From the NCBI GenBank assembly GCA_020048055.1, contig JAIFNA010000011.1, positions 62,001 through 126,000 of the forward strand: DNA of 64,000 bases, written 5' to 3'. The notes under the pieces are model-generated. The model had not been told where the DNA came from and did no database searches. It saw nothing but the letters and a program-made list of their open reading frames with translations. The stretch is from Arcobacter sp. (lineage in GTDB: Bacteria; Campylobacterota; Campylobacteria; Campylobacterales; Arcobacteraceae). The translations under genes were made by a program, and so were the position numbers. How positions within the stretch are numbered: the first letter of the stretch is position 1; every line of letters starts with the position of its first letter. Shown piece after piece: positions 15,862 to 22,329 of this stretch.

Positions 15862-15891
15862 AATCTAGCTTGGATGGCTCAAAGCTAGATT
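15862..15891. terminator. Perfect 10-bp hairpin between convergent uvrA and membrane protein gene
   Basis: AATCTAGCTT (15862-15871) and AAGCTAGATT (15882-15891) pair perfectly around a 10-base loop, immediately after uvrA and across the stop of the minus-strand gene. T-rich sequence lies a little beyond the stem on the minus strand. It probably acts as a shared end signal, but it lacks a classic U tract. Confidence 0.5.
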
Positions 15892-16694
15892 AAAAAGTAT
15901 GATAAAATAACAAGAACACCAATTTTTGCAAACCCAATCAATGTCGTCCCTATAATATTTCCACTTTGGCAACCAACACATGAGGTGTATTTTTTTGCTT
16001 CATAGTGTGCATAAAATAGATAAATCGTGTTTGTTAAAAATGCTCCAACAGATAAGCCAAAAGTGATATTCCAAATGTTTGATAGTGTGCTTTTATCGCT
16101 TATAAACAATGAGCTTACAAGCAAAACAAACATCAAAAGTATCTGTAATTTAAAAAGTTTCACAATATAGTCTCTTTTAAAAGTTGTAGGGCAACTCTCA
16201 GCAGTTGTGAGATTTGAGCCAAATTCTAGCTTTTGTTCAAATTGTTTTTTTTCATCTTTTGACATTTTGCTTAAAAATGTAGCACCAAAGTTGTAATCAA
16301 GTTTTCTTTGTATCAAAATACTCTTTTTGTCATCAGCTATTAAAGTTTTATTTGCCCCATCTCTATCTTGGTAAACAATACTTATTTGGTTATATCTTGT
16401 AATTTTTGCACTTAGATTTGGAAAATATGCTGTTGTTTCGGTTGTTGTAATTTTACCTTTTGTACTTATTAGCCTTGGATTGATAAGTTCTGTGAAACTA
16501 CCATCTTCATTTTTTAAAACAACTAGATTTAAGTGGTTTCCTATTTGAAATGAGGCTAAGGCTTCTAAGTTATTGTGGATAATCGTATCTTTTAAATCTT
16601 CTAAGATGGTAAAAAGTTCATCATTAAATATCCTAACATCAGTTCCATATTCCACACTTGGTATTTTTGGGTAGGTTGTTATTTCTTTTATCAT
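15885..16694 (-). CDS. Peptide-deformylase-like pseudoenzyme fused to three membrane helices
   Basis: A 269-residue protein whose first ~160 residues follow the order of peptide deformylase motifs. The start YPKIPSVEYGTDV matches the deformylase opening. LEALASFQIG (43-52) stands where GVGLAAPQVG is expected, with only the Gln and Gly kept. INPRLIS follows. ETTAYFP (86-92) replaces EGCLSVP with the cysteine gone, and QRKLDYNFG (129-137) replaces QHEIDHLNG with both histidines and the glutamate gone. All metal ligands are lost, so it cannot be a deformylase. About three transmembrane helices follow (near 179-198, 204-230, 247-269) with a CxxC pair (C239, C242) between the last two. It lies downstream of the sqr pair on the same strand. 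Confidence 0.7.
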   Translation of the reverse strand: MIKEITTYPKIPSVEYGTDVRIFNDELFTILEDLKDTIIHNNLEALASFQIGNHLNLVVLKNEDGSFTELINPRLISTKGKITTTETTAYFPNLSAKITRYNQISIVYQDRDGANKTLIADDKKSILIQRKLDYNFGATFLSKMSKDEKKQFEQKLEFGSNLTTAESCPTTFKRDYIVKLFKLQILLMFVLLVSSLFISDKSTLSNIWNITFGLSVGAFLTNTIYLFYAHYEAKKYTSCVGCQSGNIIGTTLIGFAKIGVLVILSYFLI

Positions 16695-16718: not shown

Positions 16719-16743
16719 CCCTAAACTTTTGTGAAGTTTAGGG
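16719..16743. terminator. Perfect 10-bp hairpin downstream of the sqr pair
   Basis: CCCTAAACTT (16719-16728), loop TTGTG, AAGTTTAGGG (16734-16743). It sits eight bases past the stop of the small ORF and 25 bases before the start of the deformylase-like gene, so it could end or attenuate the sqr transcript. No U tract follows on the minus strand, so an mRNA-stabilising role is also possible. Confidence 0.5.
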
Positions 16744-16750
16744 TGTTTAT

Positions 16751-16915
16751 TTAGTGGCTTTTGCTAACAACAATTAGCATTTTGATATTTATCACAATAA
16801 ATCTAATTGCTTGAAAAATCACACAAGTTCTTAAAAATTTTGCAACAGGACCTGGAGTCATTGTTGTAAAATTGTTACCGTAAGCTTTTATATTGTTTTC
16901 GCCATATTTTGACAT
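16751..16915 (-). CDS. Small ORF co-transcribed with sulfide:quinone reductase
   Basis: A 54-residue ORF read on the minus strand from ATG 16915 to TAA at 16751, with a good ribosome site (AAAGGA). The product begins MSKYGENNIKAYGNNFTTMT and then has an amphipathic to hydrophobic stretch (VAKFLRTCVIFQAIRFIVIN) with a single cysteine. It begins 29 bases after the sqr stop with no promoter-sized gap. I do not recognise the family; the N-terminal half is polar and the C-terminal half could lie on or in the membrane. A partner of SQR or part of sulfide metabolism is inferred from position only. Confidence 0.65.
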   Translation of the reverse strand: MSKYGENNIKAYGNNFTTMTPGPVAKFLRTCVIFQAIRFIVINIKMLIVVSKSH

Positions 16916-16944: not shown

Positions 16945-18414
16945 CTATTCTGGAATCATAGTCCAGCCAAGTTTTAACTTAGCTTTCCAGATAAATAAGT
17001 GATGTAAGATATGTTTTATCCAGTGTCCAGCAAGTCCTATTTCACCAAAAGTATATTCTGTATCTCTTCCAGTTCCTGGGTATTTTTCAAAATCTGGAAC
17101 AACAGGATATATAGTCATAGCAGCAGCAGTTCCAGTTAATAAACCTTTTCCAGCACTTGCAACACAAGCGGCACCCATATTTGCCATAGAAGCCTTGTGA
17201 AGCTCCGCATTTGGTCCTTTTGTGATTAGAGCGCAAATAGATCTAGCAACCGCTTTACCCATAATACCTGATGGCATACCTGTTCTTGGTGGTGTTGGGT
17301 TAATTGGCGTTCCATTTGGTGAACTCATTGGTTTTGAAATCGGGTGAGGTGGTGCAAATGCTATACCACAAGCAAACATATTTTTGTATGTTGGATTTTG
17401 GTAAGTTGATGGCCAGTCACTAGCTTTCCAATTTTCATAAGCTCCAGCTGCATAATTTGCATCAACTTTCATAAATCCATTTGGTGCGAAAACAGTAGCT
17501 GTTATGTCTTCTCCTACTTTATTGTAAGCTTTTAATCCAGCCCCTGCAAATGGAGGTATTAACATAGAAAAATCAAAATCCTCTTCACCATAACTTCCAT
17601 CAAGTAATTCATAGTGAACTTTCCCTTTTTCAACTTTATTTACATGAGCTCCGATAATCCAGTCAACATTTCGCTCAGCAAACAAAGATTCAGCAAATAT
17701 TTTAGAACTAACAGCAAATCCCATAGCTTTCATATGAAGTCCACCAACTCCAAAATCACCCAAAAATGATTCATTTGAAATCCATTTTATATCAGCCATA
17801 TCTCTAACACCAGCTTTATTTATCTCATGTTCGATATTAAAAATATATTCAAAAGCAGCACCTTGGCAAGTACACATTCCATGACCCGTACCAATTAGGA
17901 ATTTTTGTCTCTCCCCTTGTTTCATTTTTTCTATACATTTTGCTAATTCATGACTTGCGTGAACTGCGTGGTCTGCTGTGCAAACAGATACTGTAAATTC
18001 ACCTAAACCATTTGCATCACCAAGCCCTGGAGTTGCAGCAAAGTTTAGTTTTGGTCCAGTTGCATTAATGAGATAGTCATACTCTATGTTTTCTATTGCA
18101 CCTAATTTGTTTGATTCTGTTGATTCAATAACAACATAAGCTCTTCCATTTTCTTCGTTTCCTTCAGGATGAATCGCAATAGCTTTAGCTTGATGATATA
18201 TTATCCCAGCTCCAGCATAAACAGGAGCTAAATCAAAAGTAACATCCTCTTTGCTCATCTGACCAACACCAACCCAAATGTTTGACGGAATCCAGTTCCA
18301 TTTTGCATTTGGTGTTACAACAACAACCTCATGAGAGTTTCCAAGCCACTTTTTAGCAAAAGTTGCAGCAGTGTGTCCAGAAACACCACCGCCCAATACA
18401 ACGAGTCTAGCCAT
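16945..18414 (-). CDS. sqr: Sulfide:quinone oxidoreductase family flavoprotein
   Basis: Membrane-associated flavoprotein expected to oxidise sulfide and pass electrons to quinone. The N-terminal FAD site is LVVLGGGVSGHTAA (4-17), with YLINATGPKL and a second dinucleotide-type motif LIGTGHGMCTCQGAA in the middle. Cysteines occur in SVCTADHA, GMCTCQG and MFACGIAF, positions comparable to the redox cysteines of SQR. The last ~30 residues (IKHILHHLFIWKAKLKLGW) look like an amphipathic membrane anchor. At 489 residues it is longer than many SQRs; I cannot assign the subtype. AAGGA precedes the ATG. Flavocytochrome-type relatives are the alternative. Confidence 0.85.
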   Translation of the reverse strand: MARLVVLGGGVSGHTAATFAKKWLGNSHEVVVVTPNAKWNWIPSNIWVGVGQMSKEDVTFDLAPVYAGAGIIYHQAKAIAIHPEGNEENGRAYVVIESTESNKLGAIENIEYDYLINATGPKLNFAATPGLGDANGLGEFTVSVCTADHAVHASHELAKCIEKMKQGERQKFLIGTGHGMCTCQGAAFEYIFNIEHEINKAGVRDMADIKWISNESFLGDFGVGGLHMKAMGFAVSSKIFAESLFAERNVDWIIGAHVNKVEKGKVHYELLDGSYGEEDFDFSMLIPPFAGAGLKAYNKVGEDITATVFAPNGFMKVDANYAAGAYENWKASDWPSTYQNPTYKNMFACGIAFAPPHPISKPMSSPNGTPINPTPPRTGMPSGIMGKAVARSICALITKGPNAELHKASMANMGAACVASAGKGLLTGTAAAMTIYPVVPDFEKYPGTGRDTEYTFGEIGLAGHWIKHILHHLFIWKAKLKLGWTMIPE

Positions 18415-18540: not shown

Positions 18541-18567
18541 TTGATACTTTTTTGATATTTTTTGATA
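18541..18567. promoter_or_regulatory. Three phased TTGATA repeats between sqr and the kinase gene
   Basis: TTGATA occurs at 18541, 18552 and 18562, about one helical turn apart, in T-rich sequence inside the divergent sqr/histidine-kinase intergenic region (18415-18612). It resembles a tandem operator or an UP-like element. Which gene it serves is unknown. Confidence 0.35.
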
Positions 18568-18612
18568 TTTATTTATAGATACTTGATTGTAAATCAAATA
18601 TACTCTCAATCT

Positions 18613-19644
18613 ATGAAAGCATACAAAAATGAGCAAAATTACCTTCGAAATATATTTAAATCACTACTTATACTTATTGTGATTACGGCAATTAGTCATA
18701 TTTTTAGAGAACACCTTGATATTATAAATATTGCCCTTATTCATATTATCCCTGTTGTAAGTATAGCAATGTATGGAAATCCAAAAGCTACTATTTTTAT
18801 AACTCTACTTAGTGTGATTTGTTTTAATTTTTTGTATGTTCCACCAATTTACAGTTTTTCTGTTCACAACGAACTTTATCTTTGGAGTTTTTTTATTTTT
18901 GGGATTGTTGGCTCAATCATCACAATTCAAGCCAAAAATCTCAATAGACAAAAAAGGGAAAATGAATTTAGAGAATCCCTTTTGCATATCATCTCCCACG
19001 ATTTAAGGACACCGCTCTCAACAATTCATGGGACAATAAACCTCATATTATCAAATAAAAATCTTGATACAGCAACAAGAGATAATCTTTTAAAAGATAT
19101 AGATTTGGCTTCCCATCGTATGAAAAGATTAATCACAAATATCTTAGATAGTACAAGATTTTCAAGTGGTGAGGCTGAATTGAAATATGAGTGGTGTGAT
19201 TTTGAAGATATTATTGGTGTTGCATTAGATGAATTTTCGCATCAACAAAATGCTGATTTAGTTGAGATTAAAATAGATAAGTTGGAGTTATTTTGGGGAG
19301 ACAATACTTTGCTTACTCAATTAATTATAAATCTTTTTGACAATTCTTTTAAATATTCAAATGAGAATTCAACTATTGTTTTGGAGATAAAAAATACAAA
19401 AGATAGTGTTTTTATCTCTATTTTCAATGAAAGTCAAACTATTGATGGGGAAAAATTAAAAAATATTTTTGATAAATTTTATCGACTCGAAGATACAAAT
19501 GATATTTCTGGAAGTGGAATTGGACTATCTATTTGTAAAAATATAGTTAAGCTTCATGGTGGAAATATTAAGGCTTTGGGAACCGCAAAAGGTATTGCTA
19601 TCGAGATAAGATTACCGATAGTAAAAAAGGCTGGTTTGTTATGA
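18613..19644 (+). CDS. Short KdpD-like sensor histidine kinase
   Basis: Membrane sensor kinase. I take ATG 18613 (343 residues), which leaves a normal N-terminus before the first helix; upstream frames use only TTG. A four-helix DUF4118-type membrane domain (about 14-108) is followed by HisKA with the phospho-acceptor HIISHDLRTPLS (His129) and a HATPase domain (DNSFKYS; GSGIGLSICKN). It matches the C-terminal half of KdpD but lacks the N-terminal KdpD and Usp sensor domains. Its stop overlaps the response regulator start (ATGA). The downstream Ktr/Trk genes suggest control of potassium uptake. Confidence 0.88.
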   Translation: MKAYKNEQNYLRNIFKSLLILIVITAISHIFREHLDIINIALIHIIPVVSIAMYGNPKATIFITLLSVICFNFLYVPPIYSFSVHNELYLWSFFIFGIVGSIITIQAKNLNRQKRENEFRESLLHIISHDLRTPLSTIHGTINLILSNKNLDTATRDNLLKDIDLASHRMKRLITNILDSTRFSSGEAELKYEWCDFEDIIGVALDEFSHQQNADLVEIKIDKLELFWGDNTLLTQLIINLFDNSFKYSNENSTIVLEIKNTKDSVFISIFNESQTIDGEKLKNIFDKFYRLEDTNDISGSGIGLSICKNIVKLHGGNIKALGTAKGIAIEIRLPIVKKAGLL

Positions 19645-20342
19645 ATTTGAAAGATTTAATTTTGGTTGTAGAAGATGATACGCCTGTGAAAAAATTATTA
19701 GAGATGAGTTTAAAAGAGTATGGTTTTGGGCAAGTATCTTGTGAAAATAGAGCTCAAGCTATGAAGATGTTTCTTTTAAATAATCCTAGTTTGATATTGG
19801 TTGATTTGGGTTTACCTGATGGTGATGGGAAAGAGTTTATAAAAGAGATTAGAGAGGTTTCAAAAGTCCCGATAATTGTAGTGAGTGCAAGATATGATGA
19901 AAGTGAGATTGTAGCTTCTTTAGACGCTGGAGCTGATGATTATATTAAAAAGCCATTTTCCGTAAATGAACTGATGGCTAGGATTAGAGTCAGTTTAAGA
20001 CGAGCAACAAACAATGAAATCACAGAAGATAAGATAGTTTGTGGCGAGCTTAGCCTTGATTTGATTTCAAGAGATTTCTTTTTTAAAGGTGAAATTTTAA
20101 AGCTTACACCAATTGAATATGAGTTGCTAAAATATTTTATGTTAAATCAAAATAAAACGCTAACCCATAAACAAATTTTAAAAGAAGTTTGGGGGGTGGC
20201 GTATCAGCATGAGATGCAATATCTTCGTACTTACGTAAATACTTTGCGGAAAAAAATCGAAAAAAATAGCACAAGACCAAGATATATCAAAACAGAATCA
20301 TGTATTGGTTATAGGTTTAGTAATTCAAATGAGGAGGAATAA
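19641..20342 (+). CDS. KdpE-like response regulator
   Basis: OmpR-family regulator of 233 residues. The receiver domain has the acidic pair EDD (11-13), the phospho-acceptor in LILVDLGLPDGDG (Asp55) and the conserved Lys in YIKKPF. The C-terminal winged helix contains LTPIEYELLKYF and the recognition region LRTYVNTLRKKIE. It is translationally linked to the kinase before it and to ktrB after it (stop/start overlap, with AGGAGGA for ktrB inside its 3' end). Sequence style is KdpE-like; no kdpFABC is present here. Confidence 0.92.
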   Translation: MNLKDLILVVEDDTPVKKLLEMSLKEYGFGQVSCENRAQAMKMFLLNNPSLILVDLGLPDGDGKEFIKEIREVSKVPIIVVSARYDESEIVASLDAGADDYIKKPFSVNELMARIRVSLRRATNNEITEDKIVCGELSLDLISRDFFFKGEILKLTPIEYELLKYFMLNQNKTLTHKQILKEVWGVAYQHEMQYLRTYVNTLRKKIEKNSTRPRYIKTESCIGYRFSNSNEEE

Positions 20343-21673
20343 TGGATGTAAGTCATAAGTATGTAAAAACAATATTTTATGGATATGTTTTTATTATAGT
20401 TTTTGGTGCTTTGCTATTGATGTTGCCAATTTCAAGGGTTGGGGATTTAAGCTTTATTGATGCACTTTATACTTCAACTTCGGCAACTTGTGTAACAGGA
20501 CTTATTGTTGTTAGCACTTCTGAAAATTTTACATTTTTTGGTGAAGCTGTTATCTTAACACTTATCCAAATTGGTGGGATTGGATATATGACTTTAGTTA
20601 CGGTGTTTTTACTTTTGGTGAAAAATAATCTAAATGTCACTGATAAGATAGCCATGAAGAACTCACTTGATATGACAACTCATGATGTTGGTGGATTTGC
20701 TAAAAAAGTTATAGTTTTAGTTTTGCTTCTTGAATTGGTTGGTGCTTTGATTATAACAATACAATTTAGTGAAAAATATGAGTTTTTTGATGCCTTATGG
20801 TTTGGCATTTTTCACAGTATTAGTTCATTTAATAATGCTGGTTTTTCACTTTTTACAGACAATATGATTGGTTATCAAAAAGACACTGTTACCCTTTTTA
20901 CTTTAGCATTGTTGACTATTTTTGGTGGGCTTGGATATTTTGTGTTGTTGGAGTTGTACGAAAAAAAGAGATATGCAAAAAGTTTCTCAATTCATACAAA
21001 AATAATGATTTATGGAACCATAATTTTGATTTTATTTGGGATGGTTTTATTTTTATCTATCGAGTGGAATAATCCAAAAATATTTGGTGGATTTGATTTG
21101 TATGACAAACTTTTAAATGCTTTTTTCTTATCGGTAAATTTTAGAACAAGTGGTTTTAATAGTGTTGATTTATCAGGACTTCAAGACTCTTCACTATTCT
21201 TTTCAACCCTTTTTATGATGACAGGTGCTGGACAAGGTGGAACAGCTGGTGGGATTAAAATTACAACAGTTGCTGTTTTAATTGTTGCGGTTTTTTATAT
21301 TTTAAAAGACACAAACCAAGAGCCACATATTTTTAAAAGAACAATTGAGCAAAAAACAATCAACAAAGCGTTAGTGATAATAATGACTTCATCATTTTTA
21401 GTGTTGGTTGTTACACTGTTGTTGGTTGAAACTCAAAAATTACCATTCATGAAGATGCTTTTTGAAGTTGTCTCGGCATTTGCAACAGTTGGAGTTTCAG
21501 TTGGAGATGGAGGGATACTTAGTTTATCTGCAAAATTTGATGAGTTTGGCAAGATGGTGATAATTGTATTGATGGTGGCTGGAAGATTAGGTGTTTTTGC
21601 ATTTGGAATAATATTGGTTGGTAAAGCAAAAACAAAACATTTTAAATACCCAAAAGGAAAGATATTAATATGA
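20342..21673 (+). CDS. ktrB: Potassium uptake channel, TrkH/KtrB family
   Basis: Integral membrane K+ translocation subunit. Its 443 residues carry the four pore-loop repeats of the Trk/Ktr/HKT superfamily, each with the key glycine: SATCVTG (about 47-53), SFNNAGF, NFRTSGF and SAFATVGVS, separated by paired transmembrane helices. The length and the absence of the extra TrkH N-terminal helices suggest KtrB. It partners with the RCK protein encoded four bases into its 3' end. The two-component genes are immediately upstream in the same overlapping run. Confidence 0.93.
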   Translation: MDVSHKYVKTIFYGYVFIIVFGALLLMLPISRVGDLSFIDALYTSTSATCVTGLIVVSTSENFTFFGEAVILTLIQIGGIGYMTLVTVFLLLVKNNLNVTDKIAMKNSLDMTTHDVGGFAKKVIVLVLLLELVGALIITIQFSEKYEFFDALWFGIFHSISSFNNAGFSLFTDNMIGYQKDTVTLFTLALLTIFGGLGYFVLLELYEKKRYAKSFSIHTKIMIYGTIILILFGMVLFLSIEWNNPKIFGGFDLYDKLLNAFFLSVNFRTSGFNSVDLSGLQDSSLFFSTLFMMTGAGQGGTAGGIKITTVAVLIVAVFYILKDTNQEPHIFKRTIEQKTINKALVIIMTSSFLVLVVTLLLVETQKLPFMKMLFEVVSAFATVGVSVGDGGILSLSAKFDEFGKMVIIVLMVAGRLGVFAFGIILVGKAKTKHFKYPKGKILI

Positions 21674-22329
21674 AAACAGTAGCAGTTATAGGTTTAGGAA
21701 AATTTGGTTTTTACATCGCAAAAAGCTTATCTAAGTTGGACGATTTTACAGTTATTGCAGCAGATAACAATGAGCATACAATACAAGAGGTGAGTGAGTA
21801 TGTAGAAAATGCTTTTATTTTAGATAGTACAAACAAAAATGCATTAGAAGAGGTTGGGATCACTAATCTTGATATAGTTATTGTAAGTATTGGGGAAAAT
21901 ATTGAAGCAAGTATCTTAACAATTATGGCACTTAAAGATTTAGGAAATAAAAATATTATTGCAAAGGCAATAACAACAACTCACGGTGAGATACTAGCTA
22001 AACTTGGGGCTTCAAGGGTTGTTCATCCAGAAAAGATAGCAGGTAGAATATTGGTTCATGATTTAGTGGATAATATCAATTTTGAGAAAATTGATTTGAG
22101 TAATAGTATGAGGATTATAAAATTTAATGCACCTTCAAATATTATAGACAAAACCCTTGAAGAGATTAGAGAAAAAGATAATTTAGCGACAATCATAGCT
22201 TACAAAGAGAAAGGGGAGTGGCATAAAACTATTGATTATGGATATAGAATCCAACAAGGTGATATGCTAGCGTATCTAGGGGAATCTAAAGTCGTTGAAG
22301 ATTTTTATAAAAAATTGTTAACACTTTAG
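21670..22329 (+). CDS. ktrA: Potassium uptake regulatory protein, TrkA/KtrA family
   Basis: Cytoplasmic RCK protein that gates the channel subunit in response to bound nucleotide. The N-terminal Rossmann motif is VIGLGKFG (6-13), with the acidic end of the second strand at AADNN. The second part is an RCK_C domain (RIIKFNAPSNIIDKTLEEIREKDNLATIIAY). Its 219 residues fit the single-module KtrA type rather than the double TrkA. It starts inside ktrB and its 3' end overlaps aroE on the other strand by four bases. Confidence 0.93.
   Translation: MKTVAVIGLGKFGFYIAKSLSKLDDFTVIAADNNEHTIQEVSEYVENAFILDSTNKNALEEVGITNLDIVIVSIGENIEASILTIMALKDLGNKNIIAKAITTTHGEILAKLGASRVVHPEKIAGRILVHDLVDNINFEKIDLSNSMRIIKFNAPSNIIDKTLEEIREKDNLATIIAYKEKGEWHKTIDYGYRIQQGDMLAYLGESKVVEDFYKKLLTL

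Follow-up and report, generated by a model that had tools for sequence, protein, structure and literature searches.

A conserved membrane-anchored pseudoenzyme of the peptide deformylase fold encoded in a sulfide:quinone oxidoreductase operon of Campylobacterota

The window, that is, the whole stretch of 64,000 nucleotides of Arcobacter sp. DNA that was analysed, was found to carry on its minus strand an open reading frame of 269 aa with an ATG start (15885..16694), here designated pPDF. Its product is a membrane-anchored pseudoenzyme and a member of a conserved family, which belongs to the peptide deformylase (PDF) superfamily by descent and fold but is not a peptide deformylase. The gene is the third and last of an operon on the minus strand, following the gene for a sulfide:quinone oxidoreductase (SQR) and a 54-aa gene, and it very probably serves the metabolism of sulfide or sulfane sulfur in some way. 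The feature had been described in a sequence-only reading; the gene is real, but its place in a three-gene SQR operon had been missed.

A deformylase fold with a replaced active site

Residues 2-149 of pPDF match Pfam family PF01327 (E=3.3e-25, 88.9 bits, cut-off 22.8), and the closest sequence match in the PDB is the PDF of H. pylori (2ew5, E=8e-14). The AlphaFold2 model, built with 55 family sequences, has a mean pLDDT of 89.6 and displays the PDF fold in residues 1-158, while a Foldseek comparison with the PDB returned PDFs for all of the best 50 matches, with TM values of 0.87 for 2ew5 and 0.85-0.92 for E. coli PDF. The PDF-fold domain was assigned to residues 2-158 (16221..16691, minus strand). 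A chance match to the deformylase motifs is ruled out by the Pfam score, the predicted fold and the Foldseek matches, and the structure prediction proposed in the sequence-only reading as a check of its deformylase pseudoenzyme thus came out in favour of that claim. Among the Foldseek matches were E. coli PDF structures containing hydrosulfide (4al2 and 4az4), a curiosity only, as the hydrosulfide is presumably held at the metal, which pPDF has lost. A phage or defence origin was also considered and rejected; no relative was found in viral contigs, and the PADLOC match was weak (E=0.036).

The score of pPDF against the NCBIfam equivalog model for PDF (TIGR00079) was 60.1 bits, below the cut-off of 103.95, and an ordinary intact PDF is encoded elsewhere in the same genome (L191 4567-5124). 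In a quick, midpoint-rooted tree, all pPDFs were found on one side of a branch (support 99) and the 21 ordinary PDFs, taken from the same order, on the other.

Like the PDF enzymes, pPDF retains the fold, the domain length, the oxyanion glutamine (Q50), the glutamate of the EGCLS motif (E86) and the aspartate of HExDH (D133), but it differs from them in the absence of the Cys/His/His metal ligands and of the catalytic glutamate, and in the possession of a three-helix CxxC membrane module and of the SQR operon. In motif 1 (GxGLAAxQ) the glutamine is retained in 54 of 55 relatives, the glycines being largely replaced. Motif 2 reads ETTAY instead of EGCLS, with Thr88 (16431..16433, minus strand) at the position of the metal-binding cysteine; Thr is found here in 53/55 relatives and Cys in none of the 55. 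Motif 3, which in PDF provides the two histidine ligands and the catalytic glutamate, reads RKLDY in place of HExDH (R130 K131 L132 D133 Y134, 16293..16307, minus strand), with Arg and Lys each conserved in 54/55, Asp in 55/55 and Tyr in 53/55 relatives. Thus Thr stands in for the cysteine, Arg and Tyr for the two histidines and Lys131 for the catalytic glutamate, as had been noticed from the sequence, and the original residues are missing throughout the 55 aligned relatives. The same substitutions (53-54 of 55) and the same C-terminal tail are conserved across Campylobacterota, where such conservation had previously been only a matter to check. Glu86, Arg100, Gln129, Asp133, Cys239, Cys242 and Asn246 are invariant in the 55 diverse sequences.

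Both halves of the protein are under purifying selection, with dN/dS (omega) values for the closest pairs of about 0.04-0.14 in the PDF part and 0.07-0.18 in the membrane part, as calculated from few pairs, several with near-saturated dS. As the replacements themselves are conserved and omega is low (about 0.1), the dead site is being maintained, and decay of a paralogue is ruled out. Hence, although the Pfam and NCBIfam PDF models do match pPDF, it is extremely improbable that the gene encodes an ordinary active deformylase, given the loss of the ligands and catalytic glutamate in 55/55 relatives and the intact PDF at L191, or that it is a decaying gene without function.

The membrane module and its cysteines

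The C-terminal module, residues 159-269 (15888..16220, minus strand), contains three transmembrane helices (174-195, 201-233 and 237-268), as assigned from DSSP analysis of the AlphaFold2 model and from hydropathy, in agreement with the about three helices and CxxC described earlier. No curated Pfam family matched the module above its cut-off, the best being FeoB_associated (E=1e-4, in 3/15 members), and comparison with the PDB gave nothing convincing. Three cysteines are conserved. Cys168 (16191..16193, minus strand) lies in a CPT motif before the first helix and is present in 54/55 relatives, while C239-x-x-C242 (15969..15980, minus strand), followed by Q243 and N246, is located where the second helix meets the third in the model; both cysteines and N246 occur in 55/55 relatives and Q243 in 53/55. 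No signal peptide is evident in the large soluble domain, which was taken as cytoplasmic; in that case the three helices would bring C168 and C239xxC242 together at the cytoplasmic face of the membrane, according to the predicted topology.

A search of the genomes with the membrane part as query disclosed one protein lacking the PDF domain, a 98-aa membrane protein of genome G013 (L159 3151-3447, plus strand; E=2e-6), in which the CxxC and the asparagine are conserved. It is encoded directly after SQR and the 54-aa gene, in the slot usually taken by pPDF. This single case of weak similarity suggests that the part belonging with SQR and the 54-aa gene is the membrane-CxxC module, with the PDF domain attached to it.

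The operon and its distribution

The first gene of the operon (16945..18414, minus strand) encodes a 489-aa SQR resembling the Type I/IV enzymes; it matches the Aquifex SQR (PDB 3hyv) with E=6e-38, and all three catalytic cysteines align (SVCTADHA, CTCQGAAFEY and GAACVAS). To our knowledge, Type I/IV SQRs such as that of Aquifex are single-gene enzymes, unlike the SQR of the window, with which two further membrane proteins are encoded. Type IV SQR was reported to be conserved in all sequenced Sulfurimonas (review, PMC4584964), and because of this distribution the operon SQR is probably of type IV. The SQR of the window is up to 89% identical to SQRs of another family (f16, Sulfurimonas-like) whereas its identity to the SQRs from three further members of its own family (f1) is only 70-72%, a relationship that suggests horizontal transfer of the operon. 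Divergent from the operon, at 18562-22329 on the plus strand, are genes for a sensor kinase and response regulator pair followed by two TrkH/TrkA-like potassium-uptake genes, none of which is conserved at other loci.

The second gene (16751..16915, minus strand) encodes a conserved 54-aa membrane peptide (SMALL) with the approximate consensus MxPGxxxKxxRTCxIWQFIRFxxINIKMxxVVxKSH, which belongs to no known family and found no match in Pfam or NCBIfam. It follows 112 of 113 Campylobacterales SQRs of this type, whether or not pPDF is present, with a median gap of 27 bp. Between the 54-aa gene and pPDF there is a predicted mRNA stem-loop (16719..16743, minus strand; -12.6 kcal/mol, z -5.4). A stem of 7 or more pairs was detected in this gap at 52/59 loci, beginning a median of about 8 nt past the 54-aa stop codon and usually lacking a U tract, and the gap between SQR and the 54-aa gene mostly has no stem-loop. 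With this structure in between, the segments of the operon before and after it may differ in mRNA level.

The order SQR, 54 aa, pPDF, with SQR on the same strand and less than 1 kb away, was found at 76 of 89 pPDF loci. The remaining 13 comprise two contig ends, where pPDF still has the 54-aa gene before it, together with 11 loci of a paralogue class, so that the order holds for 76 of the 78 loci outside that class, the contig ends accounting for the other two. With matches of 150 bits or more counted, pPDF was present, full-length or truncated, in 93 of the 299 Campylobacterales genomes sampled, and SQR in 92 of these 93, the exception being a genome that is 57% complete. These operon and co-occurrence counts share ancestry and do not represent independent events. 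SQR occurs in 157 genomes, 65 of which lack any pPDF, and in those examined the pair of SQR and 54-aa genes occurs without pPDF beside it. Therefore, pPDF is not essential to SQR of this type; as the pair is common without it, SQR and the 54-aa peptide constitute the more widespread and presumably the older unit, to which pPDF is an addition.

The genome collection contained 220 relatives of pPDF, and in the best 80 of these 220 every named taxon belongs to Campylobacterota, mostly Sulfurimonas, with none from outside the phylum; the genome search itself covered the phylum of the window only. Sulfurimonas indica is one of the carriers of pPDF. One record labelled Helicobacter pylori PMSS1 (CAMCYD010000077.1, L073) carries the SQR operon, and its label looks wrong.

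The 11 loci unlinked to SQR correspond to a paralogue clade (support 97), which also draws in L036, an SQR-linked member on a long branch. At 7 of the 11, genes for AhpD-like (CMD), exported DsrE-like and/or two Sulf_transp (YeeE/YedE) proteins lie directly upstream on the same strand, and a MerR regulator gene is found near 5 of the 11, on the opposite strand. YeeE/YedE genes are also neighbours of pPDF at one SQR-type locus (L033), where two Sulf_transp genes and a rhodanese gene come after it. The YeeE/YedE sulfur transporters and the DsrE-type carriers are membrane or carrier proteins that use conserved cysteines; comparison of the Pfam families found no sequence relation between them and pPDF. 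A real exception is provided by members in other families (L180, L188 and L189), which occur in unrelated contexts away from SQR. In one of these (L188 3664-4515), C168 and a portion of the CQxGN motif have been lost but the CxxC is retained.

A proposed role in sulfide oxidation

The SQR operon, the sulfur-gene neighbours of the paralogue and the domain context together point to a role of pPDF in sulfide oxidation and the handling of sulfane sulfur. Most probably, pPDF is an accessory membrane component of this pathway, and more tentatively its cysteines are proposed to handle sulfane sulfur. SQR oxidises sulfide at the membrane and reduces quinone with the electrons, and the sulfane sulfur stays behind as a persulfide or polysulfide. 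Sharing the membrane with SQR and the 54-aa peptide, pPDF may contact SQR, its inactive and predicted cytoplasmic PDF domain acting as a docking or ligand-binding domain, while C168 and C239xxC242 would accept this sulfur or hand it on. The position of three conserved cysteines beside an enzyme that produces sulfane sulfur suggests that they are a sulfur acceptor or relay, and that they carry sulfur is plausible at a confidence somewhat short of even. Candidate ligands of the former active site, now lined with Thr, Arg, Lys and Tyr, are an anionic form of sulfur, an acceptor with a thiol group and a partner protein. A more specific form of the proposal, in which the PDF fold stripped of its metal and the CxxC module make up the sulfur-accepting subunit of a complex of SQR, 54-aa peptide and pPDF, with the old active site binding the sulfur species or its acceptor, seems rather unlikely.

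The gene neighbourhood is consistent with sulfur transfer, assembly and regulation by pPDF alike, and other functions have to be weighed. The PDF domain might be only a docking platform keeping SQR at the membrane, and possibly the 54-aa peptide too, in a structural or assembly role, the cysteines binding a structural metal or forming a disulfide. This agrees with the operon linkage, with SQR being a monotopic membrane protein and with the conserved, non-catalytic T88, R130, K131 and Y134 at the old active site; however, it is judged unlikely, as SQRs of this type often occur without pPDF, the paralogue is found among genes for sulfur handling where SQR is absent, and the PDF-less module in the same slot indicates that the PDF domain is not the constant part. 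The pocket evolved to hold peptides that begin with formyl-Met, Q50 and the surrounding fold persist, and pPDF is co-encoded with membrane proteins, all of which would suit a biogenesis factor; its dead pocket would recognise the N-terminus, with formyl-Met or free, of SQR or the 54-aa peptide during their synthesis and guide membrane insertion or cofactor loading. Such a function is improbable, since Arg, Lys and Tyr have taken the place of the metal site that acts on formyl groups, SQR without pPDF is common, no ribosome-binding feature was found in pPDF, and the CxxC would be left unexplained. The binding of nascent formyl-methionine peptides or ribosomes near the membrane, as put forward from the sequence, likewise drew nothing from sequence or context, the contexts pointing to sulfide oxidation. 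The redox part of the other role suggested there, a redox-linked sensor, fits the invariant CxxC; its sensor part, however, gained no specific support. Sensing of sulfide, polysulfide or redox state at the membrane through the cysteines, with regulation of SQR or sulfur metabolism, would accord with the CxxC and with the MerR genes of the paralogue loci, and is nevertheless highly doubtful; pPDF has no output domain, the neighbouring kinases and regulators vary by locus, and the MerR gene lies on the other strand.

In the open-access literature, no paper was found that joins PDF with SQR or that describes a PDF pseudoenzyme, in line with the earlier remark that the sequence-only reading knew of no such system. 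The family is easily misannotated as peptide deformylase, and it provides a clear case in which the fold of a translation enzyme has been adopted by a conserved pseudoenzyme with a place outside translation. The first step of sulfide oxidation is carried out by SQR in those Campylobacterota that are dominant at vents, seeps and redoxclines, and the fate of the sulfane sulfur is poorly known. The pPDF protein and the universally co-encoded 54-aa peptide are concrete candidates for the missing sulfane-sulfur step, and the operon link suggests a new accessory component of the energy-yielding oxidation of H2S in marine and groundwater bacteria.
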